Assembly (NCBI GenBank): GCA_003105035.1
Contig: PQAL01000014.1
Coordinates: forward strand, 1-64,000
Direction: 5' to 3'
DNA length: 64,000 nucleotides
DNA from: Anaerolineales bacterium
GTDB lineage: Bacteria; Chloroflexota; Anaerolineae; Anaerolineales; UBA4823
Translations under genes and position numbers: made by a program
Part shown: one piece after another, positions 33,759 to 49,721 of the stretch
Position numbering within the stretch: position 1 is the first letter of the stretch
How the letters are laid out: every line of letters begins with the position of its first letter
Notes under the pieces: generated by a model
What the model saw: the letters and a program-made list of their open reading frames with translations, nothing else
The model's database searches: none
What the model was told of the DNA's origin: nothing

Positions 33759-36700
33759 TCAATTCCTCCCGAGGCGGGGGTTATGCACCAGGTTGAGGGC
33801 CACTACGGCAGCCAGCTGGCGCCGGATGTTCAGGTCGTTGGGGGCCAGGCTTACCGCCCGGCGCAACATGCTCTCGGAAGACTTGTAATCTTTGCTCTCC
33901 TTGAGCGCCAGGCCAGCCTGGAACAAGGCGCGCGGATCCTCGGGGGCAATCTGGGTAGCCTGCTCGAAGACCTGTAGCGCCTGCTGGTACTCACGGCGCT
34001 CCTTGCGTGCCAGTCCCAGCTCCAGGTAAGGTTCAAGTCGGTCAGGCGCCAGCTGGATTGCCTTGCTCAAATGTTGGATCGCCTGGTCGAGCTGACCAGC
34101 TTTACGTAGGATCTGCCCGATCAGCAGGTGGAGGTTTGCCTGCTCATTGCGTGAGGCTTGCTCGGTGCTGGTGCTCAAGGCGTGCTGGGCAGAAGTCACC
34201 GCATTTTCGGCTTCTCCCGCTTCTAAATACATCTGGGCGAGGGCAGATAGGATGTTGAACTTTCCTGGGTGTGCATCTGCCAGGGCTTGCAGCTCGTTCA
34301 ACGCCGCACGCGGGCCTTCCATCCTTGAAAGGATGGCCACCCGCTCCAGCTCGAGCAGTTCGGGTTCTATTGTGGTAGGGATGGCTGCGTTTAACCTGGA
34401 CAAGGCTTCATTGTGCCTGCCGAGAGCGGATAGTGACCTGGCCAGGACGATGGTCGAGCGTACGTCTCGCGGGCTGGCTACCATGGCTTTGTTGGCATAC
34501 TCGTACGCGCCCTGGAAATCATTCCTGCGGATAGAGATCTCACCCAATAGCTGGTAGGAGCGACCCAATTCGGGTGCGAGTGTAAGCGCCTTTCGGGCAT
34601 TGCGATCAGCATTTTCCAGGTCACTGAGCAGGTATTGCCCTTCTGCCAGGCCAAGCAGGGCATCCACTTCGTCTGGCTGCAAGGCCAGTGCGCTTTCGAA
34701 GTAGTGGCAAGACTGGTGGATCAGGTGCGTATCCTCCGCGGCATTGTCCAGGAGCAGCTTAGCAAGCTCCATGGGGTAGGCGATGTCCTGCGGAGCAAGT
34801 CTAGCTGCCACCTGCCAGTGTTCAGCAGCATGGGCGATATCAGAATGACCCTGATACACTTGAGCGGCTAAAGCATGCCAGCAAGGCTCGTCGTTCCAAA
34901 AACCGATGGCAGTCTCAATGGCTGCGCAGGCAGTGGCACTGTCGGCTTGCGAATTGGCGATCCTGGCAAGCAGGTAATTGCAAAAAGCAGTGGTGGGGGT
35001 CTTCAGGAATGGGTTTTGAGCCAGCACTGATTGCAATGATTTAGCTGCATCAGCTGGGTTGCTATACTCGAGGGCTAGGGCTATCTGCAGGATCACTCCT
35101 GGTTGGCGTGGGAAGGCGCGTGCCAGCTTGATAATGCGGGTGAGCGCTTCACTATCTGGGTGGGCAGAGCCTCCGGTGTGTAGATGGTTGATCAGGGCTG
35201 CGGTATCCTCCGCTGAGCCCTGGCGCGCCAGGATTTCTTCCGGCTCGAGCTGGGGTTCGGTTTCCAGGTTAAAAATAATGTCCGCGCGTGCTTGCCAGCG
35301 GAAGATCTGGTCGCTGGTGAGTGGATAATCAGGAACAATCGGCTCTTCACGGAAGCCATCGATGAGATCCTGAGCCTGGTCAAGGTACTGCCTGGCCAGG
35401 GTGAAGTTTTCAGAAGTACGGGCATACTCTGAAGGTTTATGGCTGGTCACTTCGAGTGTGTCACACAACTGGTCGTATTCTGCCCTGAGTACGATGGTCC
35501 TGGCCAGGTTAAGCAGGGGCAGCGGATCTGAACTGGTTTGGCAAGCTTGTTGGCTGATCTCGATCGAGATCTCCCATAGGCCAATCTCAACGGCCGCTTC
35601 GCTCAGGGCCACCAGGTTCATGTGCTGGAAGTATGGCCTTTCCCAGCCACCATCACTAATCCTGATGGTGCTGTCGTTGGCCTTGTCAACCGCTGACTGT
35701 AGCAACCGGGCAGCTTGTTTGGAATTCCCGGCCTTGTTAATCAGGCGAGCCTGGAGGGCCATTAGCCTGACCAGTTGAGGATCGTCCGTCCTTACCTGCG
35801 CATCCTGGATGTCCCGTTTCAGTGGTTCTCCAGTTTCTAGGGCCAGCTCGGTATAGAGGCACAGGTAATCCAGGTACGCTTGGCTGTCAGCTGATAATGA
35901 CGGGTCAGGATAGCTGCCGTTGTTGAGGATTAGGTAAGCCTGCTGTGGTTGCAGGAGCGAGCGGTATAACTCAGCAAGCTGGGTGAGTATCTTAACCGGC
36001 CATCTGGTGAGATCTCCGGCCCTTGATTGCGCCATGGCTTTACGTGCATAACCTGCTACTCCTGCCAGGTTACCTGTAGTGCGCTGGATGCGCATGGCTG
36101 TGAAGAGTAAGTCGAGGGCGAATACATAATCCGTGGTTTGGGGAAGAGCTGCGTCGATGCAATCCAGCGCTTCCTGGGTGCGCTCCAAGCCAAGTAGGAT
36201 ATCAATCTTGAGTGAGACGATCGAGTTTTCTGCGGGGAGCAGGCTGATCGCCTGGTCCAGCGTGCGTAGGGCAGAGGGCTGATCGTCGATCTCCATGTAC
36301 TCGTGGGCCAGGCTGGTGTACACACTTGAGATGTGTCGCCCGGTGCTCGCCTGGTCGATAGCCATGCCTTTTTCAAGGCAGGTGGTGGCCAATCCATGCT
36401 CATTGATCTGGCTCAGGAATGTAGCCGCGTTTTGCAGGTCTTCGATCGTGGCGAAATCGAGCTGGGCGAGCGAAGCAAATGTATCGCGCGCCTCATCACG
36501 ATTGCCCATCTTCGCCTGGAAGTTGCCGAGCTGGATTAACAGGTCGGTGCGGGTGGGAGCCAGCTCGATTGCTTTGTGCAAGGCGATAAGCACTTCGGAA
36601 GGAATCTCTTTATATAATGAATTTGAAGCTGATGCTTGAACTCCGCGCTTTCCCCACAGGATCTTTGCCATCTGCCCGGCAAACCAAGCAAGGTGATCCG

Positions 36701-39317
36701 GATTTTCTCCATCAATCACCAGCACATTTCGGGCAGAACGCACTGCGTCTTCAACCAGGTTGGCCAGCAAGTAGGCATCCGATAGAGCCTTGCAGGTGGC
36801 GGGGTTCTCAGGGTTCACTTGGCTAGCTTCCTGCAGGGCGGCAATCGCGATATCATGTTTGCCAATGGTGCTGGCGATGCAGCCAAAGCCGTACGACAGG
36901 CGCTCAAACCATTGCCTGTCTTCTGTTAAGGGTGTATCCAGGGCTTCGCGGTAAGCCTGGAAAGCCAGCTCATTTTCTCCACTGGCTGCCAGCACTTCAG
37001 CTGTCAGAGCCCGGGCTTCGGCCAGACCTGGGTTCTGCTGGAGAGCCTGGTTGAGGGCAATCAGGGCTTTCATCGGCGGGTAGGTCTTCACGCCGGAATT
37101 ATGCAAGAATAATACGCAGCGGGCATAATCCAGGTATGTGGCTGGATCTTCCACTGCTTTGTTATCGATCAGAAGCTCGAGTGGTGAAAGGGCTTCTTCG
37201 TATCGTTTCAGCTCGAGCAACATTGTTGCATAAGATTGGGCGAGGTTGGGTAGGTTTTGATCCAAAGCATACGCCTTGGCCAGGGCTGTGCAGGCATCCT
37301 CGAGGTGCCCAAGCTCCCTCAAAGCCTGGGCAAAGCCCACCAGGATGTGCGCTTCCTCCGGAGCAAGCTCAGCGGCGAAGCGTAGCTCAGGCAGAGCCAG
37401 GCTAGGTGCTTCATCATCAAGATACAAGCTGCCCAGCATGAAGTGTACCTGGGCTGATGAAGGTACCGCTTGGGCGGCGTTCCTGAGGGTTTCAATCACT
37501 GACTTGATCTGTTGTGTTTCTTTTTGGGCTTCTGCTAACGCCAGCCAGGCTGCCGCATTTGTTGGGGTTACTTCGGTGGCGCTGGTCAGGCATACAAGAC
37601 CCTGTTCTTTCTGGCCGAGGAGCAGGTATGCTTCACCCAGATAAATGAGTGCCTGGCTGTCCTCGGGATTTTTGGTCAGGAGATCAGTACAAACATGCTG
37701 GGTCAGCTCTGGGTGGCGGGCTTTGAGTGCGCAATAGGCGTACCCGTATAGGTCTTCTACAGGCTGCTCGGTCTTATCTTCCTCAGCAGAGGCCAGGATT
37801 ATGCTACGATGCTCAAGGCTGGCTTCCCACTCTTCAATGGCTTCCAGGGTGGAAGCGAAATCCCTGCGGAAATCCATTGCATCAGGGTTCAAACAGACAA
37901 GCACGCGTAATGTCTCGGCAGCTGCATGATTCTGGTGGGTAGCCCGGTAGCAAGCAGCCAGCTGATGCAATATCCTTGCATCATTGGGGCAGATTCCCAC
38001 AGCAGCCTCGCAGACACGAGCTGCCTCGAGTGGCCGATGCTGCTCAAGTAAAAGCTTGCCAAGGCTGGTCAGCGAGACATGTTCACCCGAGACTGGCAGG
38101 CTATCGAGTGTACCTTCCTGGTTAAGCAGCTCGAGCAGCCTGGTCATCGCGCTCGAATAGCGATCATTGCCAGCCTGGCGTGATGCTCTGATGACCGCGA
38201 AAAGCGTGGCGAGGTCTCCGGGTAGCGGTTCATCCAAACGGGGGAGCAACTTGGCAGCATCCTCGTCCAGCCCGCGCTCCAGCAATGTTAGCGCCAGCTC
38301 AGCCCGGGTGCCTGGTGATCGATCGGAAAGCCCGTTGAAATTGGCAGCTTTGATTGCTATCTCTAAGACCTGGGTGGAAGCTTCTCCCTGGTAAGGCCCA
38401 GCCAACACCTGGCTAGCTGTACCCGTGTAAACACTGTGGAGGAGAGAATTTTCTACAGAGAGTAACTTGGCTAAGTCTTGCTTTTGTCCGGCAATCTGTC
38501 GCAGCCTCACCTGGAACTGCACCTCAGCCAGAAGGCTTAGGCATGCATTTATGTCACTTTGTACGGTCAAAAGCTCTATATTGAATCTGGGTTGAGAGGC
38601 TAGCCATTCCGAGCAGAAGATCTCAGCTAATCTTGGGCACTGCTCGCTGACTTCGTGCACCAGCCTGAGCCTGTCGGCAGCAGGCAACAGGTCACCATAC
38701 GGTCCCTTGCACAAGTCTTTGAGTGAGGTGAGCTGTTCATCGGTAGTCAGGGGGTTGGTGAGCAAGCAGTGGATCGCTAACCTGAACCGTCCGATGCTCG
38801 CTCCTGGCTGGACCAAGGCTTTTATTAGCTCTGTTGGTGTATCGACCATGCCGTACAGGCACGCCAGAGGCGCCATCCAGTCTTGGGTGTCATATTCAGA
38901 GAGACCCCCTATCAGGTCTGCCCATGAACGCGTTATGTGAAATTTGTAGGCCAGCGCCAGGGCAATCATTCCGGCTTGTGCCAGATCTTGGGAGGTGTTT
39001 TGCGAGGAAAGTTGACCCGGGAAATTGCGTATAGCCAACTGAAGTATCTGGTTATCAACGGCCTCGAACAGATGTTGTGGGTCGATCTGGCCGGGGTTGC
39101 ACTGCCCGAGAGCAACGAAAGCCAGCCTGGCGGGGGAGAAATCAGCAGGGAGGTAAGCGTGTTCTTGGGGCTGTGAGAGAACCAACTGCTCGAAGAAAGC
39201 TTGATCGTTCAGGCCGCTCCATATGACAAAATCCTGTCGCAGGCTGGGTAGCAGCCACGACAGGTTGTAGGCGTGCAGGGTTGCAGTCAGGCGGTCGATG
39301 ATGTGTTGAGTCGCCAT
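33759..39317 (-). CDS. Giant TPR-repeat protein (1852 residues)
   Basis: The protein is made almost wholly of tetratricopeptide repeats. Clear units include DARILHQLAACYRATHQNHA near residue 445, PTNAAAWLALAEAQKETQQ near residue 590, and PDRLEPYLELGLARKERREY near residue 1765. No catalytic domain, signal peptide or membrane helix is visible. It lies six bases after a small membrane-protein gene and four bases before the caspase-like gene, so strict co-expression is expected. Pairing of TPR proteins with caspase-fold proteases is known from bacterial and eukaryotic systems, for example TPR-CHAT. The TPR protein may therefore act as sensor, scaffold or substrate receptor for the protease; this is inference. 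Confidence 0.85.
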   Translation of the reverse strand: MATQHIIDRLTATLHAYNLSWLLPSLRQDFVIWSGLNDQAFFEQLVLSQPQEHAYLPADFSPARLAFVALGQCNPGQIDPQHLFEAVDNQILQLAIRNFPGQLSSQNTSQDLAQAGMIALALAYKFHITRSWADLIGGLSEYDTQDWMAPLACLYGMVDTPTELIKALVQPGASIGRFRLAIHCLLTNPLTTDEQLTSLKDLCKGPYGDLLPAADRLRLVHEVSEQCPRLAEIFCSEWLASQPRFNIELLTVQSDINACLSLLAEVQFQVRLRQIAGQKQDLAKLLSVENSLLHSVYTGTASQVLAGPYQGEASTQVLEIAIKAANFNGLSDRSPGTRAELALTLLERGLDEDAAKLLPRLDEPLPGDLATLFAVIRASRQAGNDRYSSAMTRLLELLNQEGTLDSLPVSGEHVSLTSLGKLLLEQHRPLEAARVCEAAVGICPNDARILHQLAACYRATHQNHAAAETLRVLVCLNPDAMDFRRDFASTLEAIEEWEASLEHRSIILASAEEDKTEQPVEDLYGYAYCALKARHPELTQHVCTDLLTKNPEDSQALIYLGEAYLLLGQKEQGLVCLTSATEVTPTNAAAWLALAEAQKETQQIKSVIETLRNAAQAVPSSAQVHFMLGSLYLDDEAPSLALPELRFAAELAPEEAHILVGFAQALRELGHLEDACTALAKAYALDQNLPNLAQSYATMLLELKRYEEALSPLELLIDNKAVEDPATYLDYARCVLFLHNSGVKTYPPMKALIALNQALQQNPGLAEARALTAEVLAASGENELAFQAYREALDTPLTEDRQWFERLSYGFGCIASTIGKHDIAIAALQEASQVNPENPATCKALSDAYLLANLVEDAVRSARNVLVIDGENPDHLAWFAGQMAKILWGKRGVQASASNSLYKEIPSEVLIALHKAIELAPTRTDLLIQLGNFQAKMGNRDEARDTFASLAQLDFATIEDLQNAATFLSQINEHGLATTCLEKGMAIDQASTGRHISSVYTSLAHEYMEIDDQPSALRTLDQAISLLPAENSIVSLKIDILLGLERTQEALDCIDAALPQTTDYVFALDLLFTAMRIQRTTGNLAGVAGYARKAMAQSRAGDLTRWPVKILTQLAELYRSLLQPQQAYLILNNGSYPDPSLSADSQAYLDYLCLYTELALETGEPLKRDIQDAQVRTDDPQLVRLMALQARLINKAGNSKQAARLLQSAVDKANDSTIRISDGGWERPYFQHMNLVALSEAAVEIGLWEISIEISQQACQTSSDPLPLLNLARTIVLRAEYDQLCDTLEVTSHKPSEYARTSENFTLARQYLDQAQDLIDGFREEPIVPDYPLTSDQIFRWQARADIIFNLETEPQLEPEEILARQGSAEDTAALINHLHTGGSAHPDSEALTRIIKLARAFPRQPGVILQIALALEYSNPADAAKSLQSVLAQNPFLKTPTTAFCNYLLARIANSQADSATACAAIETAIGFWNDEPCWHALAAQVYQGHSDIAHAAEHWQVAARLAPQDIAYPMELAKLLLDNAAEDTHLIHQSCHYFESALALQPDEVDALLGLAEGQYLLSDLENADRNARKALTLAPELGRSYQLLGEISIRRNDFQGAYEYANKAMVASPRDVRSTIVLARSLSALGRHNEALSRLNAAIPTTIEPELLELERVAILSRMEGPRAALNELQALADAHPGKFNILSALAQMYLEAGEAENAVTSAQHALSTSTEQASRNEQANLHLLIGQILRKAGQLDQAIQHLSKAIQLAPDRLEPYLELGLARKERREYQQALQVFEQATQIAPEDPRALFQAGLALKESKDYKSSESMLRRAVSLAPNDLNIRRQLAAVVALNLVHNPRLGRN

Positions 39318-39323
39318 ATGGGT

Positions 39324-39647
39324 TTACAGGTTGCGCAGTAGCACCAGGCAAGACAGGAACATGAGCAGCGCACCTACAATGGTCAAATAGAACCCTATCC
39401 CGTTGGAGGTACGCATCACGTCGTTCAATGTAGTCATCAATGTGGAAGCATTGCCTACCAGTCCTGAGATCTCCTCAGCAATACCTTTCTGGGCCAGCTT
39501 GGCGGTGTTGTCAGCGATATTTCGCAGGTCTTTGCCCCAGGCCCCATACATTAAAATGGCCAGGCCAAGCAGGAAGGTGATCGTACCCAGCAAAAAAGTG
39601 CCTATGAGCATGAACAACTGTAAATCACTTGCATTAATATTTTCCAT
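39324..39647 (-). CDS. Small two-helix membrane protein
   Basis: This 107-residue protein has a hydrophobic segment at about residues 11-35, a soluble helical middle (KDLRNIADNTAKLAQKG), and a second hydrophobic segment at 84-104. Both ends probably face the same side of the membrane. No family is recognised. It starts 43 bp after the LCP-like gene stop and ends six bases before the giant TPR gene. A plausible job is membrane anchoring of the TPR-protease machinery, but this is only suggested by position. Confidence 0.7.
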   Translation of the reverse strand: MENINASDLQLFMLIGTFLLGTITFLLGLAILMYGAWGKDLRNIADNTAKLAQKGIAEEISGLVGNASTLMTTLNDVMRTSNGIGFYLTIVGALLMFLSCLVLLRNL

Positions 39648-39690
39648 GGTTACCTCAACAATTCTTGTGCCAGGCGATCAGGTGTGCACA

Positions 39691-40398
39691 TTAATGAATG
39701 GTCTCATTTACTTCTGCAACTGGAAGGCTGCAGTGAATTGGCTGTTTGTTCGATAGTAAATCCTCTAGCTCCTGCTCGAGCAACTGCGGATCCAGGTCCG
39801 TGATAGCCTTCTGGGGGATCAACGAAACGAGCTGGGTGAGCCCATCTTCTCCACTGTTCAAAACCAGGCGTTGGCATGCCGCGCGCAGGATTATTCCTTC
39901 TTGGATATCTTTACCATACGCTTCCTGCGCTAATGTGGAGATATTTTGAAGGGCTTGCTCGTCGAGTACGACGTAGCCGCTCCACCAATAATTGTGCTCC
40001 TCCAGGAGGTCAAGAAAATCCTGTGAAAGTAGTACATTCCCGTTCTGCTTGCTTAGCTTAAATGTGTTTACCAGCTGCTGTCCAAAATCAGTGGTAACCT
40101 CGCTATCTGAGGGATAGATGGGAAGCAAGCGGATGTCAGGTTCAGTCGGGAGGTATGAAGCCAGCCAGATGCTCTCCAGCTGGGAATTAGACCTCCCCAT
40201 TGCACTTGCAATGATGACCAGGTAACTTCTCTGGCCATTGTTTAAAGTCGGAATGGATGGCTGATCTTCCTGCGCAGCTACACTCTTAACCATTGCAAGA
40301 TCGATGAATCCGGGACGGTAAAAGTGAGTACTGAACGAGAATCCGATCACCAATGCGCAGATGAATACCGAGAAATTTAACAGCGAGTGATTCTTCAT
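39691..40398 (-). CDS. Secreted or membrane-anchored protein, faintly LCP-like
   Basis: This 235-residue protein has an N-terminal signal or anchor (SVFICALVIGFSF, residues 10-22) and an extracytoplasmic domain. The stretch YLVIIASAMGRSNSQLESIW near residue 59 and the following LPTEPDIRLLPIYP recall the first strands of LytR-CpsA-Psr domains. The conserved Arg/Asp residues of active LCP enzymes are missing, so the resemblance is weak. It lies seven bases after the stop of the preceding small membrane protein. Its role in the operon is unknown. Confidence 0.6.
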   Translation of the reverse strand: MKNHSLLNFSVFICALVIGFSFSTHFYRPGFIDLAMVKSVAAQEDQPSIPTLNNGQRSYLVIIASAMGRSNSQLESIWLASYLPTEPDIRLLPIYPSDSEVTTDFGQQLVNTFKLSKQNGNVLLSQDFLDLLEEHNYWWSGYVVLDEQALQNISTLAQEAYGKDIQEGIILRAACQRLVLNSGEDGLTQLVSLIPQKAITDLDPQLLEQELEDLLSNKQPIHCSLPVAEVNETIH

Positions 40399-40405
40399 TC
40401 ACGTA

Positions 40406-40696
40406 TCACCTGGGTTGAACCATACCAATTAAGAATCCTGCGGCAAACCCGAGAACCAACCAGAAGAACAGGGGAGGCACAATTTCCTTGATCGAATCCC
40501 AGATTATCGAAAGGCTGAACTTTTGAGCCTGTGGAAACGCGTGTGCTTGTTGCTCAGACACTGCCTGGGCAGGAGGGTTCAGCGAAGCTGCAGATTGCCC
40601 TGGAATACCACGCAGGTGGTTAACCCCACTCAACATCGAGGTGAGCGTTGAGTACATCACGATCTCAACCCGGTTCAGGATGCCGCCAGTGTTCAT
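40406..40696 (-). CDS. Small protein with one C-terminal membrane helix
   Basis: From the ATG at 40696 the protein is 96 residues. A TTG six codons upstream, overlapping the ftsZ stop, is a possible alternative start. Residues 1-62 are polar and Ala/Gln-rich, with one hydrophobic segment near the C-terminus (PPLFFWLVLGFAAGFLIGMV), giving tail-anchored topology. No family is recognised. It follows ftsZ by ten bases, so it may tether FtsZ or a partner to the membrane in place of FtsA or SepF. That is inference. Confidence 0.6.
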   Translation of the reverse strand: MNTGGILNRVEIVMYSTLTSMLSGVNHLRGIPGQSAASLNPPAQAVSEQQAHAFPQAQKFSLSIIWDSIKEIVPPLFFWLVLGFAAGFLIGMVQPR

Positions 40697-40706
40697 GCTG
40701 CACCAA

Positions 40707-41933
40707 TTACCCAATGGTCCTTACATCAATCTTTCGACCGCGTCTCAGGAAGGCAGGAATATCCAGGTCATTCGAGCCTACTGAGACTTCCTCCCGCATG
40801 GGCTCATCAGTCAAGAATTCGGGCATATTGAAGTCGTATTTTTCGGAGGCGACAGGAGCCTTCCGTTCAAGGGGCGTCTGCCTGGTGTCTAAACGGGAGA
40901 GGGTCTCCTCAAGGGTTGTGGAACCTAAACCGGTAATGACCAGGATCACCTCTACGCGATCCTGCAGGCGCTCATCATTGACCACACCCAGGACGATCTC
41001 AGCCCTTCCGCCAGCCTGGGCTTGCAAGTGCGATAAGGCTGCCTGGACATCATAGAGTGCCAGCTCACCACCGCAGGTAAAGTTGACCAACATGCCAGCT
41101 GCATTCTCGATCGAGGTAGTCTGTAAGAGTGGGTGGTGGAGGGCTTGCTCCACGGCTTGCATCGCCTTGCCTTCGCCATCGCCCTGCCCAATAGACATGA
41201 GCGCTCCACCGCCCATCTTCATCAGATTGCGGACGTTAGCAAAGTCAACGTTGATCATACCGGGAGTGGTGATCAGCTCAGTGATTCCTTGCACTGCCTG
41301 GCGTAAGACATCGTCTGCTAGCCGGAAGGCTGTGTCCAAAGGCAGGTCCCGGGGTGCCACGTCCAGGAGCCGATCATTGGGGATGGAGATCAAGGTATCG
41401 GTGTTGGGTGAGAGGCGCATGATGCCCTCCGATGCGTTCCGCTGCCGGCGACCCAGCTCAAATGAAAACGGCATTGTCACGACCGCGATGGTCACAGCTC
41501 CGATCGATCGGGCAATCTTGGCTGCCACTGCGATCGAACCCGTGCCAGTACCACCGCCCATTCCAGCGGTCAGGAAAACCATATCAGCCCCTTCAAGGGC
41601 AGCTGCGATGAGCTTAGTGCTCTCTTCTGCTGCAGCTTGGCCGACTTCTGGATTGCCGCCGGCACCTAAGCCCCGCGTGGTTTTTGGACCCAACTGGATC
41701 TTGGTTGGTGCCAGGCTGTTATGGAGTGCCTGGGCATCCGTATTGGCCACGATGAAGTCCACGCCGGTGAGCCCGAGTTCGATCATGCGGTTGATCGCAT
41801 TCGAGCCACCTCCTCCCAGGCCCAGTACTTTGAGTGAGGGTTTGTGAATGTTGCCATTCAGTGGTTCAGTATCATCGGGAAGGGTGAAGGGGTAGGAAGA
41901 TTTATGCTGGAAGTTGTAGATCATCTCATTCAT
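40707..41933 (-). CDS. ftsZ: FtsZ cell-division GTPase homologue with altered T7 loop
   Basis: This is a 408-residue tubulin-fold GTPase. From the chosen start (AAAGGTG upstream; a longer frame opens at 41999) it shows the T1 loop LGLGGGGSNAINRM, NTDAQAL, the tubulin signature GGGTGTGS at 126-133, and the C-terminal peptide DLDIPAFLRRGRK that binds FtsA/SepF-type anchors. The T7 loop reads NVDFANVRNLM. The first Asp is present but the second, equivalent to E. coli Asp212, is Asn233, which should slow GTP hydrolysis. No dcw-cluster genes are nearby. It may be a paralogue with a structural role or the only FtsZ; the window cannot decide. Confidence 0.93.
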   Translation of the reverse strand: MNEMIYNFQHKSSYPFTLPDDTEPLNGNIHKPSLKVLGLGGGGSNAINRMIELGLTGVDFIVANTDAQALHNSLAPTKIQLGPKTTRGLGAGGNPEVGQAAAEESTKLIAAALEGADMVFLTAGMGGGTGTGSIAVAAKIARSIGAVTIAVVTMPFSFELGRRQRNASEGIMRLSPNTDTLISIPNDRLLDVAPRDLPLDTAFRLADDVLRQAVQGITELITTPGMINVDFANVRNLMKMGGGALMSIGQGDGEGKAMQAVEQALHHPLLQTTSIENAAGMLVNFTCGGELALYDVQAALSHLQAQAGGRAEIVLGVVNDERLQDRVEVILVITGLGSTTLEETLSRLDTRQTPLERKAPVASEKYDFNMPEFLTDEPMREEVSVGSNDLDIPAFLRRGRKIDVRTIG

Positions 41934-41995
41934 TTGGGCACCTTTTTTTGATGGTTTAGTCTTTCCTGAGCCGTGATAATCTCCGAAATCAAATA

Positions 41996-43324
41996 TCAAT
42001 GAGCGGATGTCGATTCTGTTGCAATATTCATACCATCTCCACTGATCTGCTCAACGATGCAACCAGCAGCGAGTAGACCGTCTATAATCGATTCCGGCAC
42101 CTTTGCAGCACCTCCAACCACGGTGACGCGCCTGGCATGTGAAGCTTCTACGGGAGAAAATCCTATCGTCGGCTGGTATTTATTTATGAACGGGCGGATA
42201 GCGTCGAGGTGCCAATCGGCTGGACCCCACTCGAAGGTGGGCAGCAGCAAATAATGGGCGATCGGCCGGGATTCTGGTGAAGCTAGCTTGGCAGCTACCC
42301 GTTGCTTGTTGGTTGCTGCGGGATCAACACCTCCGTTGGCTACCCACTCCTTGATCATCGTCACCACTGGCAGCTGTTCACCGCCTGGCTTGAACCAGGC
42401 ATCCTTGACTTCGGGTGAATCCTGATCCGCAGCCACCAACCAGAAATTACAAGCCAACACTTCTGATGGGACGGGATCGAATTCTTGGGCCTGCCCGGCC
42501 ATTATCCTCACCAGAGCCAGGTTCTGCCAGGAATGGGCTAGGATATCAACTGCTGGTGAGCGTGGGTCAGGTTGGTCACCCAGCCGGCTGCCTGCCCCAA
42601 GCAGGATAATCGGAAAGTTTTTATCCAGGGCTGCCTGGGAAACAGCCAGGTACCAGTCGAAGATGCGGAAACCTAGCTGGTCCTCGGAATTGGCGGGGGT
42701 TGAATAAGGCCTGGTCTGTGGCCAGCGCTCAGGTCCACCTGCACCCCAATCGGGTGAGCGATTTCCAGGCCAGGCATAAGCTGAGAGGGTGATCTCATCA
42801 AGCAATTCCGTTTCACCCCGTCGTGAAAGGCCTTGCAGGGACGAAAAGAGGAAAGCTGTATCCCAGTAATCTCCACCCGGTTCCAGGGCTGGGAACGAAG
42901 GGGCAAGGCCTGCCTGTAGGGCGGCGCGCGCAACCGGGATGAACATATCCAGGAATCTTTCTACAATGCTACGTTGCACCCAGCTGGAGGAAGACCAGTG
43001 GTTCTTCAAATTCGGACGGTCGAAAAGAGTGATGTAGCGAACACCCCAATGAGCATAGGCTTCAAAGATCATGCTCAATTCATCAATATTGTGGTTTCCA
43101 CTGGTAGCTAACGGCAGATGGATGATCGGTTGGATGCCCTCATAGAGGATCTGGAGGATAAAAGTCTCAGGAATGGCCCTGTCGAAAGGAGCAAGCAGGG
43201 TCAGCCAGGATGCCCCCAGTGCCTTTAGTTCCGGGATCCAACGGTGCAGGTCGTTCTCCCGGTAATGGATAGTGTCGGGGAAGTAGTAAAAACCGTAGCG
43301 CGAAATTTGCAATGCATCGTTCAT
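41996..43324 (-). CDS. TIM-barrel-like protein (glycosidase superfamily-like), first gene of the sigma-54 operon
   Basis: This 442-residue cytoplasmic protein has alternating strands and helices. ELKALGASWLTLLAPFDRAI, GIQPIIHLPLA and YAHWGVRYITLFDRPN look like strands of a (beta/alpha)8 barrel related to glycoside hydrolases, with LDEITLSAYAWPG later. I do not see a clear pair of catalytic carboxylates, so enzymatic function is uncertain. The C-terminal 60 residues (SHARRVTVVGG...) may be a small Rossmann-like extension. It lies 62 bp before ftsZ, and a near-perfect sigma-54 promoter lies about 40 bp upstream of its ATG. Confidence 0.6.
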   Translation of the reverse strand: MNDALQISRYGFYYFPDTIHYRENDLHRWIPELKALGASWLTLLAPFDRAIPETFILQILYEGIQPIIHLPLATSGNHNIDELSMIFEAYAHWGVRYITLFDRPNLKNHWSSSSWVQRSIVERFLDMFIPVARAALQAGLAPSFPALEPGGDYWDTAFLFSSLQGLSRRGETELLDEITLSAYAWPGNRSPDWGAGGPERWPQTRPYSTPANSEDQLGFRIFDWYLAVSQAALDKNFPIILLGAGSRLGDQPDPRSPAVDILAHSWQNLALVRIMAGQAQEFDPVPSEVLACNFWLVAADQDSPEVKDAWFKPGGEQLPVVTMIKEWVANGGVDPAATNKQRVAAKLASPESRPIAHYLLLPTFEWGPADWHLDAIRPFINKYQPTIGFSPVEASHARRVTVVGGAAKVPESIIDGLLAAGCIVEQISGDGMNIATESTSAH

Positions 43325-43362: not shown

Positions 43363-43379
43363 TGCAAGGGATGTGCCAG
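43363..43379 (-). promoter_or_regulatory. Sigma-54 (-24/-12) promoter for the FtsZ-TPR-caspase operon
   Basis: On the minus strand the 17 bases read CTGGCACATCCCTTGCA. This has the TGGCAC (-24) and TTGCA (-12) blocks with the exact five-base spacing required for RpoN promoters. Only the G usually following TGGCAC is changed. The expected start of transcription is near 43352, giving a leader of about 28 bases before the ATG at 43324. The rpoN gene itself and an NtrC-type activator lie within 6.3 kb. Confidence 0.85.
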
Positions 43380-43514
43380 TGGAATAAAATAGGCTGGCTA
43401 TCCACTTGGTATGATTCAATGTATAATGATTCCCGGCTAGATGGCAGGCCCTAGCTTTTGAATGATCATTGGCTGGACTGGAAATCCCCGTATCAGTCAC
43501 CGGTGTGGAGGAAT

Positions 43515-44951
43515 ATGCGTTTATTACGAAGCAAGATGGCATGGTCTGTTGTCAGCTTGCTATTTGCCATGATCCTGGTGGGTTGTGCATCACCAACGAC
43601 ATCCTCGCGGGGTATATATGAAGTTGATCCTGCCTTCTCTGATTTTTATCGTGAGATGGGAGCTGAAGAGGTGTTGGGTTCGGCGATTTCACCTCTCATT
43701 GATAAGGACGGTACCACCTACCAGTATGTTGTTTCCGGGTTGATGGCTTACGACCCGAACCGGGCAGCTCTCAAGCGTTTCTATTTTTCACCCATAGCAG
43801 CAAGCACCTGGAAGGTCAATGGTCAGGTTGAACAACCCCCGACGGACAGTAGCACAATTTATGTGAACGGGCACAAAATCTGGGATGAGGTATTGCCATT
43901 TTATGAACAGTATGGAGCTAACATTCTTGGCGTACCGCTTACCAAGGTCGAGGCCAATGACCTCAAGCAGCGGTATGAGCAATATTTTGATGGGGTAGGG
44001 TTCTACCGTAACTATAGCGACTCACCAGGTACAGTGCATTTGATGCCCTACGGAGATTGGTTGTGTGGCACGACCTGCCCATATGCCAGCTCCGACTCAA
44101 CTCCACCTGGACCTTCTTATGTGCGCGAGTACAGCGCGACCGAACAGGTGTTCCTGGATGCTGCGGAGCGATTCAGCTACGACTATACCGGTGAGCCTCT
44201 GTCTCCTCCGTCGATGAGCTCGGATGGCAATTACGAGATGGCCTTTGAGAATGTCGTATTGTTCATCGACCCAAGCAGCGGAAGCCAGGTGAAGCTCCGA
44301 CCAGTTCCAGCGTGGCTGGGCATCCAATCGGACGCGCCTGTAGAAGAAGAACAGGCGGAATGGCTATCCTTCTTCCCAGTACAGGAAGGGTTAGGCTACA
44401 ACGTACCAACCAGCTTCTTCGACTATATCAATGCTCACGGGGGTATGGACTATTCCGGCAACCCGATCACCGAATACCGGGAACTTCCTGACGGGGGATA
44501 TTCGCAATGCTTCACTAACTTGTGTTTGGAGTATCACCCCAATGCACCGATTGAGCTGCGCATAGGCCCTCACTCGCTTGGAGCGGATTATCTTACCAGC
44601 GGTACGCAACCAGCTACACCTGGTCCTGCGATTACTGAAGCCTTGCAGATCAATACCTGGGAGGATTACCCTCTGATCCCATCCGGAGGTCAGCAGGTCA
44701 TCCATGTGGAAGCCACACGTAACAATACACCGGTCAATGGCATCCAGGTTTCCCTGCTGGTAAAACAACCGGATGGTCTCACCAAGACTTACGTTTTGGA
44801 TCCGACCGGACAGGATGGTAGAGCGAGAGGCACGCTGGATCCGATCGATGGACCGAATGGAGCCATCGTCCCCTACGAGGTATGCGTGGTTGGTAACACC
44901 TCGCCTCAGATTTGTTTCTCGAGAAGCTACACAATCTGGCAACAGCCATAA
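43515..44951 (+). CDS. Lipoprotein of unknown function
   Basis: From the ATG at 43515, preceded by GGAGGAAT, the 478-residue protein starts with a lipoprotein signal (SVVSLLFAMILVGC, lipobox LVGC) and so should be anchored at the cell surface. Repeated segments such as FYREMGAEEVLGSAIS and EQYGANILGVPLT resemble LGFP-like repeats found in Chloroflexota surface proteins. The C-terminal 110 residues look like an immunoglobulin-like domain (VIHVEATRNNTPVNGIQVSL). No catalytic motif is seen. It is transcribed divergently from the sigma-54 operon, with about 190 bp between the two starts. Confidence 0.75.
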   Translation: MRLLRSKMAWSVVSLLFAMILVGCASPTTSSRGIYEVDPAFSDFYREMGAEEVLGSAISPLIDKDGTTYQYVVSGLMAYDPNRAALKRFYFSPIAASTWKVNGQVEQPPTDSSTIYVNGHKIWDEVLPFYEQYGANILGVPLTKVEANDLKQRYEQYFDGVGFYRNYSDSPGTVHLMPYGDWLCGTTCPYASSDSTPPGPSYVREYSATEQVFLDAAERFSYDYTGEPLSPPSMSSDGNYEMAFENVVLFIDPSSGSQVKLRPVPAWLGIQSDAPVEEEQAEWLSFFPVQEGLGYNVPTSFFDYINAHGGMDYSGNPITEYRELPDGGYSQCFTNLCLEYHPNAPIELRIGPHSLGADYLTSGTQPATPGPAITEALQINTWEDYPLIPSGGQQVIHVEATRNNTPVNGIQVSLLVKQPDGLTKTYVLDPTGQDGRARGTLDPIDGPNGAIVPYEVCVVGNTSPQICFSRSYTIWQQP

Positions 44952-45002: not shown

Positions 45003-46178
45003 CTATTGGGATGATTTGATCATTTCCAGAGGCAGGTGGGGGAGGTCGATCGAGCTTTCATCGCAGAACAGCATAGCCCGTTCGATCACGTTACGCAGCT
45101 CACGAATATTACCCGGCCAGGGGTGATTGATCAACGCTTCCATCGCCCGGGGGGTCACATCCTGGATATTGATTCCAAGCCTCTGGTTGTTCTGGCGAAT
45201 AAACAGGCCGACCAGCTCGGGGATATCTTCCTTGCGGTCTTTAAGTCTTGGGAGATGCAGGTCAACTACTTTCAAGCGGTAATACAAGTCATGGCGGAAC
45301 TCGCCCTTTTCCATGGCTGTGATCAGGTCGCGGTTAGAGGCGGCGATGATCTGCACATCCACACGCACTTCAGTGGTCCCGCCCACGCGCCTGAACTTCT
45401 GTTCTTCGATGGCGCGCAGAAGCTTGGCTTGCATATCGACCGGCATGGATGAGATTTCATCCAGGAAAAGGATACCCTGGTCAGCAACTTCCATCAGGCC
45501 TAGCTTGCGCTTTTCTGCGCTGGTAAAGGCTCCGGCTTCATAGCCGAATAGCTCAGATTCGAGCACGGTGCTCTGAATCGCTGCGCAGTTGATCGCGATG
45601 AAGGGTTTATTGGCGCGTGGCCCCATCTGGTGAATAGCATTGGCCAGCACCTCCTTACCGGTGCCGGTCTCGCCGGTAATCAAGACGGAAACTGATGCAG
45701 CTGCAGCACGCTGGGCTTGGTGTAGAACCAGCTGCATTGCCGGGTTGGTACACACCATCGAAGAATATTCCTTACGCTGTGATTCGCGCAGGTGCACCAG
45801 CTCCCTGCGCATAGCTACGATCTCCTGAGCTCTCAGGATCGATTTTTCGAGCGGCCCGAATTGGACCGGTTTCTGGAGGAAGTCATGCGCGCCGTTTTTC
45901 ATCGCCTCGACGGCCATATCGATGTGACCATAGGCGGTGATGATGATGATGGGAGGCCTCATGGGCATCTGGGCTGTCTCACTAAGCAGAGTAGGTCCGT
46001 AGCCATCGGGCAGCTCCACATCCAGAAGAATGATATCTGCACTGCCGTGCTTGAGACGCTCACGCGCTTCAGCCAGGGTAGCCGCCTCCAGCACTTCGTA
46101 GCCGCGCGTGGTCAGGAACTGGCTGATATTGATTCGTGCGTTTGCTTCATCGTCAACGATCAGAATTGTAGCTGCCAT
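45003..46178 (-). CDS. NtrC-type sigma-54 activator lacking a DNA-binding domain
   Basis: This 391-residue response regulator has a receiver domain at residues 1-120 with phospho-acceptor D53. A sigma-54 AAA+ domain follows at 140-375, with Walker A GETGTGKE at 169-176, the sigma-54-contacting loop GAFTSA at 216-221 (normally GAFTGA), and Walker B GILFLDE near 235. The protein ends at residue 391, directly after the AAA+ lid (WPGNIRELRNVIERAM), without the usual Fis-type helix-turn-helix. It should therefore activate RpoN from solution rather than from a fixed enhancer, as FlgR and CtcC do. It follows the histidine kinase gene by 13 bp. Confidence 0.92.
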   Translation of the reverse strand: MAATILIVDDEANARINISQFLTTRGYEVLEAATLAEARERLKHGSADIILLDVELPDGYGPTLLSETAQMPMRPPIIIITAYGHIDMAVEAMKNGAHDFLQKPVQFGPLEKSILRAQEIVAMRRELVHLRESQRKEYSSMVCTNPAMQLVLHQAQRAAAASVSVLITGETGTGKEVLANAIHQMGPRANKPFIAINCAAIQSTVLESELFGYEAGAFTSAEKRKLGLMEVADQGILFLDEISSMPVDMQAKLLRAIEEQKFRRVGGTTEVRVDVQIIAASNRDLITAMEKGEFRHDLYYRLKVVDLHLPRLKDRKEDIPELVGLFIRQNNQRLGINIQDVTPRAMEALINHPWPGNIRELRNVIERAMLFCDESSIDLPHLPLEMIKSSQ

Positions 46179-46191
46179 AGCACTTTCCAGC

Positions 46192-48159
46192 TTATAAGGA
46201 TGTGGTATAGGGGAATTGAACTACGAAGTTCGTTCCTCCCAGGATGCTATTTACGTAAATCGAACCTCTGTGCGCCGTTACGATGCGTTTCACGATCGCC
46301 AGACCAAGCCCCGTACCGCCTTGCTTCGTGGTGAAGAACGGCTCAAAGATCTTCTCCCTGAGTTCAGCCGGGATACCTGGTCCGGTGTCGGAGATGCTGA
46401 CTTCAACATGTGCCTGATTCTCATCTTCGCTGATCTGCCGGATTTTGACCGACAACATGCCTCCGTTTGTATCCATGGCTTCGATGGCGTTGTTGATCAG
46501 GTTGGTGAAAACCTGTTCAAGCGCACGGTAATCACCATCGATGGTCGGCACCGTCTTATCTGCTTGCACCTGATACTTGATGTTCAGCTTGACTAGCCTG
46601 GATCGCCAGCGCTCCAGCAAGTTCGAGATCAGCTGACCCAGTTGAATGGCTTCAAGCTTGTATTCCATCGGCCGGACAAAGGTCAGGCTCGATTTTACCA
46701 GAGAAGTTAAGCGCTCACAATCTTCTTCCAGCCTGGCGATGTTCTGCTGGTTTGGGTCATCTTTGGGCAGGTTGATTGCCAGGAGCTGCAAGCCGGTGAA
46801 AATGTTATTGATCGGGTTTTTCACTTCGTGGGCAAAGGAAGCCGTTACCTCTCCGAGCAAGGCGCGCTGCTCCAGCTGCTGGTTCTTCAAGCGGTATTCC
46901 TCCTGCTCGCTCAAATCGTGGAATAGGATGATGATACTATTAACCTGGTTCTCGTTGATGATCGGGATGATCCGCAGGTTAGCCTGGAAGTATTCACCGT
47001 TGCGGCGAAAGAGCTTGAGGCTTCCGATGCTGCCGATACGCAGCTCGTTTTGTACGACCTGGAAGGCAGCCTTGAGGTCCTCACCGCCAATCAGCACGTT
47101 TTCAATTCTCTGACCAGCGACTTCCTCGGTGGCGTACCCCAGGCAGATCTCGGCTGAGGGATTCAATGAATTAACAATCAGGTCAGGAGACAGAATGATT
47201 ACCCCATCTTCCATTGAGTTGAAAATGGCAGAGTTGGTCAGCACTTTGGTCATGTAGTCCTGGATGTCCTGCTTGAGCTGGGTGTTCAAGGCATGTCCCT
47301 GGATAATCGTGTTGACCTGGGTTGCTAAGAAGGTTAGCTGTGGGATCAGGTTGGGCGACGGGATAGAATTCTCGCCCAGGGCAATTAGCAGCCCGATGAA
47401 GGCATTCGCTTCACCAATAGGGGCGGAGGCCATGTAGGTGATATTTGAGGCATGAGCCAGACGGTGGAGGTTGATGATAGCTCTCCTACCACGCACCCAG
47501 ATCATGGGCGATTGCAAGTGGGCGAAATCTTGCCCACTGATTTCATCCGGGAAAGCCGGGTCGCTACCGGTGAGTGTGATACGCTGCAGGCTGGGGTTTT
47601 GGCTGTTCGCCTGGTAGATGCTGAGTGAGCAAGCCCCCGTCAAGGCCAGGCTGGTCTGAAGCAGGCTGTTGAGCGATTCATCCAGGTTTGGGGAGAGCAG
47701 TGCCCTGGATAGCTCATTCAAGTGATCCCACAAGGCATGGTAGCGCTCTTCTTCTTCACGGAGCAATCGATACTGCTCATCCAGCTCGAAAGAAATTAAT
47801 GAGAATTTATTCGCATCGCCCAGAGGGCTAAATGTCACCTGGACGATGGATTTCGAGCCACCCCGCTTGATCAACTCGACGGGTGAGGGATACTTAGCTG
47901 GCTCGATCTGCCCTTCTTCAATATCAGGCTCAGCTTTAATCACCTGGAACAGGCTCCGGTAGTCCACCTCGGTCAGCTCACTGCGTGTATAGGCAGTCAG
48001 CTCGGTAGCCTTCGAGTTGGCCAGGTAAATTCGGTTGGTATTATTATTGATGATGACTGCAGCTTGTGGTAGCGAGTTTAGTAAGGTTTCAAGTTCCGCT
48101 GTTCCCAGGGGTGCAAATTGATTTTTTATGAAGCTACTAAACTGCGATACTCGGTTCAT
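46192..48159 (-). CDS. PAS/GAF sensor histidine kinase (NtrB-like)
   Basis: In this 655-residue soluble kinase, residues 15-135 form a PAS-like domain, about 150-300 a GAF-like domain, and about 305-425 a second PAS (NSAIFNSMEDGVIILSPDL). The dimerisation/H-box is SFAHEVKNPINN with the phospho-accepting His at residue 444. The ATPase has VFTNLINNAIEAMD (N-box) and SDTGPGIPAELREKIFEPFF (G1/F boxes), ending KQGGTGLGLAI. There are no membrane helices, so the signal is likely internal. The start overlaps the rpoN stop by 23 bases, and the gene presumably phosphorylates the adjacent response regulator. Confidence 0.92.
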   Translation of the reverse strand: MNRVSQFSSFIKNQFAPLGTAELETLLNSLPQAAVIINNNTNRIYLANSKATELTAYTRSELTEVDYRSLFQVIKAEPDIEEGQIEPAKYPSPVELIKRGGSKSIVQVTFSPLGDANKFSLISFELDEQYRLLREEEERYHALWDHLNELSRALLSPNLDESLNSLLQTSLALTGACSLSIYQANSQNPSLQRITLTGSDPAFPDEISGQDFAHLQSPMIWVRGRRAIINLHRLAHASNITYMASAPIGEANAFIGLLIALGENSIPSPNLIPQLTFLATQVNTIIQGHALNTQLKQDIQDYMTKVLTNSAIFNSMEDGVIILSPDLIVNSLNPSAEICLGYATEEVAGQRIENVLIGGEDLKAAFQVVQNELRIGSIGSLKLFRRNGEYFQANLRIIPIINENQVNSIIILFHDLSEQEEYRLKNQQLEQRALLGEVTASFAHEVKNPINNIFTGLQLLAINLPKDDPNQQNIARLEEDCERLTSLVKSSLTFVRPMEYKLEAIQLGQLISNLLERWRSRLVKLNIKYQVQADKTVPTIDGDYRALEQVFTNLINNAIEAMDTNGGMLSVKIRQISEDENQAHVEVSISDTGPGIPAELREKIFEPFFTTKQGGTGLGLAIVKRIVTAHRGSIYVNSILGGTNFVVQFPYTTSL

Positions 48160-49600
48160 TATGTTGAGGAATCATCAGGCTCTGTTTGTAAGTATGGTTG
48201 CGCAGGTGGGCAGGCAAAATGCCCTCAATTGAGCGGTATTTCGCCACTGTCCGCCTGGCTACCGGGAATCCCATATTGGAGAGCATTTCAGCAATCTGCG
48301 AATCACTCAGAGAATCGGATTCCTGGTCGATTATCTGTTTCAAGGCCGTACGGACGTGCAAGCTGCGATCGAAAAACATCGCTAATGGGACGATCCTGCG
48401 GTTGGGCAGTTGGACTGCTTTATCGGATACCGCTCTGGACATCGTCGATTCATGCACCTGAAGCTCCGCAGCCATATCTGCGCGAGTGATGGGTTTCAGG
48501 TACGCATCCCCATATAAGATGAACTCGCGCTGGATAACGACCAGCCTTTGCATTAAGCGCACAATTGTGTGGTTGCGTTGTTGTAAGCATTTTACCAGTA
48601 AAGTAGCTTTTTCGAGATCCTCCTGCCACAGCTCCGACTTTTCTTCTGGGGCTTGCTGGAGAGCTTCACGAAACAGCGGATTCACTCGCAAGGTGCCGTA
48701 GAAAGGCATGGCGATCTCCACCACCAGAGCTGAGTCATCATCCTCTGTGCAGCGGCTGATGATGATATCGGGGAAGTGGAAGGTATTCTCCTGTTCCTTG
48801 GAGGATGCGCTATTCGGCAGGTCACCCCAATGGGCGCGTGCCGGGAATGGGTTCAGGTTGTCGCTGATGAAGCGGACGATCTCCCTGGCCTGAGCGATGG
48901 GGATATTAAGATGCCGGGCAAGCTCCGGGAGGTGGTGTGGGCTAAGCAGCTCAATACCCGCCTGAATGGCGTCTTCAGCCCTATCGGGTACTTGAAGGTT
49001 CTCCCCCAAGACTTCCAGCTGGATCAACAGGGCCTCCTTGGGTGATGATGATCCAACCCCCAGGGGTTCGGCATGCTTGATCTGATCAATGACCTTCTCA
49101 ATCCGTGAGAGGGGCAAATGGTAGTAAAGGGCAATTTCGACTGGCTTGATGGTCAAGAGACCGTCTTCGTCCAGGCTGGTCAGGATGTGTACTGCAATAG
49201 GGCGGTCATCTACCGCCAGCTCAGGCCCAATCTGGCGCAGGATGAATGCGGGCAGGTCCTCATGCTCGGGAGCGAAGTTATCATCCGGGAGGTCGTCAAG
49301 GCTGGCATTCGAGCTGGGTTTAGCAAAGAAATCCTCGTGGCACGATAGGTAGACGATCGGCTGATCAGGTGAGCTGCCCATGGTACTGGTACAGGTTGGG
49401 CAGGGTTGGCTATTATGCAGCACCCGATGGCAGGTCGGGCAACGGAATTCTTCGATTAGCTCAAGGGCCGGGTTGCGGGCTAGCTCAGCTTCCACCTTCT
49501 GGTGAAGCTCGGCTGTGGTTAGCTCAAGCAGGGCCATGGTCTGGGCCAGGTGAGCGGTGGTCTGAGGGCGTAAGAGTGGTCTTTGACTTTGCAGTAGCAT
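48137..49600 (-). CDS. rpoN: RNA polymerase sigma-54 factor with zinc-ribbon insertion
   Basis: This 487-residue protein has the Gln/Leu-rich activator-interaction region at residues 8-48 (LRPQTTAHLAQTMALLELTT). The core-binding region spans about 110-290. The DNA-binding region has HVRTALKQIIDQES and the RpoN box ARRTVAKYR near residue 459. Residues 54-70 contain four cysteines (CPTC...CPTC) in a zinc-ribbon arrangement, which is not a usual part of RpoN. On the minus strand TTGCAA-N16-TATACT (49639-49612) looks like a good sigma-70 promoter with a very short leader. It heads the operon rpoN - kinase - activator. Confidence 0.95.
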   Translation of the reverse strand: MLLQSQRPLLRPQTTAHLAQTMALLELTTAELHQKVEAELARNPALELIEEFRCPTCHRVLHNSQPCPTCTSTMGSSPDQPIVYLSCHEDFFAKPSSNASLDDLPDDNFAPEHEDLPAFILRQIGPELAVDDRPIAVHILTSLDEDGLLTIKPVEIALYYHLPLSRIEKVIDQIKHAEPLGVGSSSPKEALLIQLEVLGENLQVPDRAEDAIQAGIELLSPHHLPELARHLNIPIAQAREIVRFISDNLNPFPARAHWGDLPNSASSKEQENTFHFPDIIISRCTEDDDSALVVEIAMPFYGTLRVNPLFREALQQAPEEKSELWQEDLEKATLLVKCLQQRNHTIVRLMQRLVVIQREFILYGDAYLKPITRADMAAELQVHESTMSRAVSDKAVQLPNRRIVPLAMFFDRSLHVRTALKQIIDQESDSLSDSQIAEMLSNMGFPVARRTVAKYRSIEGILPAHLRNHTYKQSLMIPQHNEPSIAV

Positions 49601-49611
49601 GGTTAACCTCT

Positions 49612-49639
49612 AGTATAACTTGTTTCGCTATAGTTGCAA
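49612..49639 (-). promoter_or_regulatory. Sigma-70-type promoter of the rpoN operon
   Basis: On the minus strand, TTGCAA (49639-49634) and TATACT (49617-49612) are separated by 16 bases. Transcription would start only about five bases before the rpoN ATG at 49600, so the mRNA would be nearly leaderless, or the true start is further upstream. Confidence 0.5.
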
Positions 49640-49721
49640 GTTCTATGCCATGGAATTTAGGCGGATTTTGTGTTAAAATTTACCAAACATCCCATTCTGA
49701 AGCCTCATGAGGTGAATATCA

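Follow-up and report, generated by a model that had tools for sequence, protein, structure and literature searches.

The window studied here, a stretch of 64,000 nucleotides from an Anaerolineales bacterium, carries a sigma-54 (RpoN) promoter motif upstream of an ftsZ gene, and the initial annotation inferred that the two-component system encoded nearby controls this operon. A sigma-54 promoter stays silent until an ATP-driven activator acts on it, and sigma-54 normally serves optional functions. The locus raises the question of whether genes for cell division can stand behind such a switch; a dcw and cell-wall cluster under sigma-54 would make septation conditional, which is unusual. Our comparison of the Anaerolineales indicates that a sigma-54 switch appears to head both a second FtsZ operon and the main dcw cluster across the order, and that it appears to be run by one adjoining regulator pair.

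The TIM442-FtsZ2 operon and its predicted promoter

The predicted promoter, the operon and the adjoining genes are:

43363..43378, minus strand: predicted sigma-54 promoter of the TIM442-FtsZ2 operon, TGGCACATCCCTTGCA (strict -24/-12 match and orthologous conservation)
41996..43324, minus strand: TIM442, cytoplasmic protein of 442 aa with a TIM barrel and a small C-terminal domain, first gene of the operon
42020..42035, minus strand: weak possible internal sigma-54 site TGGTATGAATATTGCA just before FtsZ2 (2 mismatches, chance level)
40707..41999, minus strand: FtsZ2, second FtsZ, T7-loop Asp replaced by Asn (residue 255), GGGTGTG and C-terminal DIPAFLRR kept
40406..40714, minus strand: p102, small protein, one membrane-like segment at the C-terminus (hydropathy)
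39691..40398, minus strand: p235, N-terminal membrane- or signal-like segment, downstream of FtsZ2 also in relatives
39657-39672: weak sigma-54 site before p107, from the relaxed window scan
39324..39647, minus strand: p107, small protein with two membrane-like segments, heading the TPR genes
33759..39317, minus strand: tetratricopeptide-repeat (TPR) protein, 1852 aa
30983..33754, minus strand: p923, 923 aa, weak TPR similarity, syntenic in relatives

The reported match to the -24/-12 consensus proved exact on the minus strand. CTGGCACATCCCTTGCA is the exact minus-strand reading of 43379-43363, and the perfect 16-mer TGGCACATCCCTTGCA has GG at -24, GC at -12 and the correct spacing between them. 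At 0 mismatches the window contains TGGCACN5TTGCA a single time, where shuffles predict 0.02, and the genome-wide scan proposed in the initial annotation confirmed that the motif is rare, with 7 perfect copies in the whole 4.45 Mb genome. Allowing 2 mismatches gave 27 matches in the window versus 24 by chance; since this pattern is no commoner than chance, weight is placed only on the strict match and its conservation. The site lies 39 bp upstream of TIM442, the first gene of the operon, and a transcription start at ~43352 is predicted from the -12 GC at 43365-43364, giving a predicted leader of 28 nt before the TIM442 ATG at 43324.

The description of the genes as an FtsZ operon needs amendment. 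An FtsZ is encoded, but the first gene is that of the TIM-barrel protein and ftsZ is second, its start overlapping the end of TIM442 by 4 bp. Similarly, the supposed division gene belongs to the FtsZ family but is a second, divergent copy and not the canonical division FtsZ. A good sigma-54 site directly before FtsZ2 is present in only 6/79 relatives, and TGGTATGAATATTGCA is not relied on. Anaerolinea thermolimosa has an extra site in this position (L236, G437:C1:778658-778673) besides the one at TIM442.

AlphaFold confidently models TIM442 as a TIM barrel with a small additional domain (mean pLDDT 90). The protein matches no Pfam family, PDB sequence matches offered no convincing identity, and Foldseek matches gave only general similarity to glycosidase and aldolase barrels. 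In distant Chloroflexota (G221, G398, G048), matches to its C-terminal domain (residues ~335-437) lie within other proteins, often larger ones, so this may be a mobile domain.

Three other genes of the window deserve mention. Directly after p923, and in the same orientation, comes a gene for a beta-lactamase-like/peptidoglycan-binding protein (29382-30878), which may be transcribed together with the operon. A divergent lipoprotein-like gene (43458-44951, 497 aa) has a 133-bp intergenic region in common with the operon, and its position is kept in several relatives. At 54326-56278, MoeA is fused with a periplasmic-binding-protein-like domain.

Conservation of the site

TIM442 homologues were found in 32/38 genomes of the window's family. 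When family loci were fetched and oriented, a sigma-54 site was observed upstream of the TIM442 orthologue in 30/30, lying 54-132 bp upstream and forming the top match of a 540-bp scan in these 30 loci. The family consensus is TGGYAYNNNNCTTGCA, with one departure in a few loci. Eighty named TIM442 loci, recorded as Anaerolineae or Chloroflexi, came from scanning GTDB genomes; they include those of Levilinea saccharolytica KIBI-1 and Anaerolinea thermolimosa IMO-1. A site scoring at least 13 was present upstream in 79 of these 80, compared with 5 when the opposite strand was scanned and none within the gene body. All 79 full-length orthologous sites share the GG and the G of the -12 GC, and ftsZ is the next gene after TIM442 in 79/80 named loci. 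Absence of the site upstream of orthologous operons, which would have refuted the original proposal, is contradicted by its presence in essentially all Anaerolineales orthologues. Nine TIM442 carriers from outside the order have no upstream sigma-54 site, so sigma-54 control looks to be an order-level trait while the gene itself is more widespread.

The module is also lost together with its sigma factor. In 400 Chloroflexota genomes, rpoN was found in 18/20 with TIM442 versus 106/380 without it. Genome G002, from the window's own family and 96% complete, is without rpoN, the activator, TIM442, FtsZ2 and the ftsL site described below, and on this gene content is a natural loss of the whole module. 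The site is thus kept upstream of orthologues and lost with rpoN, as expected of a sigma-54-dependent promoter. A chance match, or a site for some other DNA-binding protein, could be argued from the relaxed window scan, which is at chance level. Such an origin now has next to nothing to recommend it: the strict match has 0.02 expected occurrences, the conservation is order-wide with strand and gene-body controls, and the site disappears with rpoN. Chance was rejected on the rarity of the strict match and its conservation in family and named loci, and the wider possibility can be regarded as largely refuted by conservation and co-loss with rpoN.

Probable regulators of the promoter

The adjoining regulatory genes and site are:

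49635..49650, minus strand: sigma-54 site TGGCATAGAACTTGCA before rpoN (putative autoregulation)
48137-49600, minus strand: rpoN (sigma-54), single copy in the genome
46192-48159, minus strand: histidine kinase with PAS, no membrane segment found
45003-46178, minus strand: REC-AAA+ sigma-54 activator, no DNA-binding domain

These three genes form one run in the window, and the coordinates and domain assignments bear out the initial annotation, which had placed rpoN, a kinase and an activator within 6.3 kb. The activator combines REC with an AAA+ domain carrying a GAFTGA-type loop, as a sigma-54 activator should, and the loop is GAFTGA in most orthologues. No HTH family match was found in it, and 16/16 orthologues end after the AAA+ lid; with REC, AAA+ and no C-terminal HTH, it qualifies as type Ic. 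The sigma-54-contacting loop reads GAFTSA in the window and in L125, L132, L135 and L139, and GAFSSA in L183. PMC3162934 lists a Ser in this place as putative.

The genome encodes 1 true sigma-54 activator. Two other AAA+ matches were considered and rejected, reaching only 29-32 bits in frames of 840-849 aa. Because rpoN and the bona fide activator each occur only once, any sigma-54 promoter in the genome should answer to the local regulators. The proposed control of the operon by the local two-component system is supported on these grounds, and the link of the TIM442-FtsZ2 promoter to these regulators is well supported; promoter activity itself is inferred, without transcript data. A second activator is present in some relatives, so this logic of one sigma and one activator is not universal.

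Sigma-54 sites recur at particular positions around these genes. A site before rpoN was observed in nearly all family loci and in 10/10 named loci, and one before p107, at the head of the TPR genes, in 9/21 relatives. No site was found before the kinase in 12 relatives' loci or before p235 in 24 loci.

Sigma-54 sites on the dcw cluster

Regulon lists were built from pattern searches and from sequence stretches. The clade consensus TGGYAYNNNNCTTGCW gave 111 sites in 8 genomes versus 14 for the reversed control (p ~7e-20), and 13 versus 2 in the window's own genome. A protein of 159-176 aa recurs downstream of these sites. It is FtsL, as identified by weak NCBIfam matches below curated cut-offs (FtsL_Actino 7e-8), a membrane-plus-coiled-coil look and its position. 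The gene order is rsmH, site, ftsL, ftsI, murE, mraY, murD, ftsW, murG, murC, murB, ddl, ftsQ, ftsA, ftsZ. FtsI to MurB were identified in the window's own genome, where a contig end interrupts the cluster (C33 and C29). MurG to FtsA plus FtsL were identified in genome G012; there the site and the canonical ftsZ share a strand and are ~16 kb apart.

To relate the site to sigma-54, 60 rsmH-ftsL junctions were read with the rpoN status of each genome, counting sites at a score of at least 12.5. The site was present in 36/41 rpoN-positive genomes versus 0/19 rpoN-negative genomes (Fisher 2e-11, uncorrected for relatedness). Eighteen of the 19 rpoN-negative genomes belong to one family, so the counts are not independent. 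A clear ftsL site was lacking in 3/13 f3 genomes and 2/2 f4 genomes, and was present in 7/7 further genomes, among them both cultured type strains, L. saccharolytica and A. thermolimosa, which thus have the TIM442 site and the ftsL site. The canonical dcw cluster has its own conserved site, and sigma-54 control is thus not confined to the accessory operon.

A dcw housekeeping promoter may also exist upstream of rsmH, in which case sigma-54 may only boost the cluster. More generally, the sites could bind sigma-54 holoenzyme while housekeeping promoters mainly drive the division genes, leaving sigma-54 a minor or stress-specific boost. The rpoN-negative relatives speak for this, as they have the dcw cluster without the site and a housekeeping route must exist there. 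We nevertheless judge it the less likely case, though far from negligible, because the site and its position are strongly conserved across the order and no sigma-70-like promoter was found on the operon strand within 310 bases around the TIM442 promoter.

The second FtsZ

FtsZ2 contains the Tubulin/FtsZ GTPase and FtsZ_C domains that define the FtsZ family. GGGTGTG is present in 72/79 FtsZ2 sequences and the DIPAFLRR-like C-terminal peptide is kept. The T7-loop Asp (E. coli D212) is present in 20/20 canonical copies. The aligned position in 74 FtsZ2 relatives is His in 65, Asn in 6, Asp in 2 and a gap in one, the window having Asn. FtsZ2 therefore fails two marks of a canonical active FtsZ, having no T7-loop Asp and lying outside the dcw cluster, which has a separate copy (G000:C29). 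The window's FtsZ2 is 44% identical (170/388) to the canonical FtsZ, and a tree without an outgroup places the canonical copies in a single, fully supported cluster at a long branch. By these sequence comparisons FtsZ2 is a distinct second FtsZ lineage.

E. coli FtsZ D212A retains 7% of its GTPase activity (PMC8142252), and FtsZ D212N is used for stable polymers (PMC12754632). With the T7-loop Asp lost and the GTP-binding signature kept, FtsZ2 is predicted to polymerise but hydrolyse poorly. This slow-hydrolysing FtsZ is a prediction, its biochemistry and division role being inferred.

It remains possible, though doubtful, that the promoter is real and FtsZ2 is not a division protein at all. 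It would then work with TIM442, the TPR and the membrane proteins to build a different structure, related to the envelope, the surface or filaments, and the dcw site would do no more than raise cell-wall capacity under the same condition. Two points suit that idea: FtsZ2 forms its own lineage and shares its operon with TPR and membrane proteins whose role is unknown, and sigma-54 is known to control exterior and envelope functions (PMC3162934). The division-type C-terminal peptide is retained, however, and ftsL-ftsI-ftsW-ftsQ-ftsA-ftsZ lie behind the same switch.

Proposed mechanism

We consider it probable that the strict site is a genuine sigma-54 promoter of a second division-type FtsZ operon and part of a small dedicated regulon, although there are no transcript, binding or phenotype data. 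What the sequences establish directly is the sites and their conservation, the order and copy number of the genes, the missing domain, the substituted residue and the joint absences; promoter activity and a part in division are inferences from these. In the mechanism we propose, the cytoplasmic PAS kinase would phosphorylate the REC-AAA+ activator, a phosphorelay that is inferred. Lacking a DNA-binding domain, the activator would act from solution on every closed complex of sigma-54 RNA polymerase, enhancer-free activation being likewise an inference. With one sigma-54 and one such activator, promoter sequence alone would define the regulon. This would fire rpoN-kinase-activator itself, the TIM442-FtsZ2 operon, p107-TPR in many genomes, and dcw from ftsL on, ending with the canonical ftsA-ftsZ. 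Having kept the GTP-binding signature and the C-terminal anchor peptide but not the T7-loop Asp, FtsZ2 is predicted to act within the Z-ring or alongside it, hydrolysing slowly and lending stability. Against this reading, the window's FtsZ2 has Asn and not the commoner His, and two FtsZ2 sequences retain Asp.

A more far-reaching proposal, which we hold tentatively and at somewhat less than even probability, is that Anaerolineales control septation as a whole through a single gate. A sigma-54 two-component switch that needs no DNA binding would fire the whole dcw operon together with a Z-ring-stabilising, catalytically altered FtsZ2, for example for cross-walls in multicellular filaments, and loss of rpoN would release dcw to housekeeping control. 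The scheme can be put to the test because its logic is closed, with one sigma, one activator that has no DNA-binding domain and a regulon that can be read from the sequence, and because losses have occurred naturally in one family and in G002.

Comparison with known systems

The open-access literature, which leaves out most subscription papers, yielded no previous account of dcw control by sigma-54 or of the FtsZ2 lineage. Helicobacter FlgR and Chlamydia CtcC resemble the window's activator in being REC-AAA+ proteins without a DNA-binding domain (PMC3162934, PMC7482065) and, likewise, in being one or very few activators per genome that act on all sigma-54 promoters. A paper cited in PMC3162934 calls FlgR enhancer-independent, to judge by its title alone. 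The regulons of FlgR and CtcC concern flagella or conversion to the infectious form, whereas the Anaerolineales targets are ftsL-dcw, the second FtsZ operon and rpoN. NtrYX of Rhodobacter sphaeroides is also a two-component system; its regulator, of the NtrC family, is a direct activator of dcw operons, with ftsL, ftsI, ftsQ and ftsA among the genes concerned (PMC7240162). NtrX was mapped to its target operons by ChIP-seq and so binds DNA, whereas the Anaerolineales activator has no DNA-binding domain and its link to the genes is the conserved -24/-12 promoter. Surveys of sigma-54 regulons (PMC3162934, 2011; PMC12316311, 2025) likewise list peptidoglycan and envelope genes as targets; ftsZ is not in the text of the 2011 survey, and the 2025 survey has neither Chloroflexota nor dcw.

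Chloroplasts and archaea also have two FtsZ proteins, FtsZ1 and FtsZ2, and for the chloroplast pair there is evidence that one stabilises and the other gives dynamics (PMC8142252, PMC12343686, PMC9871819). The Anaerolineales FtsZ2 differs in being an independent lineage, in the loss of the T7-loop Asp and in its sigma-54 placement, its function being inferred. With its conserved T7-loop change, it would be a bacterial parallel to those two-FtsZ systems. FtsZl1 and FtsZl2 (PMC2875224) and the second FtsZ of Atribacteria (PMC7736352) are likewise extra copies beside a conventional FtsZ. FtsZl1 has a vWA partner or a coiled-coil domain and FtsZl2 a ~300-aa extra C-terminal region (PMC2875224). 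The present FtsZ2 has a normal FtsZ GTPase and FtsZ_C domain and a short tail with the standard peptide, no vWA was found among the operon genes scanned, and its architecture is not that of either FtsZl. As far as tested, it is not of the Atribacteria type with an N-terminal extension.

Further candidate sigma-54 targets

Other genes recur behind sigma-54 sites. Four family genomes (L204, L256, L263, L266) encode a conserved protein of 351-354 aa that weakly resembles biotin/lipoyl domains; with a site 29-34 bp ahead of its gene, it is a regulon candidate. Recurrent targets across families include a membrane protein without a Pfam match (L022, at C3:225572 in the window's own genome, and L223 in A. 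thermolimosa) and a lipoprotein that is LysM-like in look (L247, L264).
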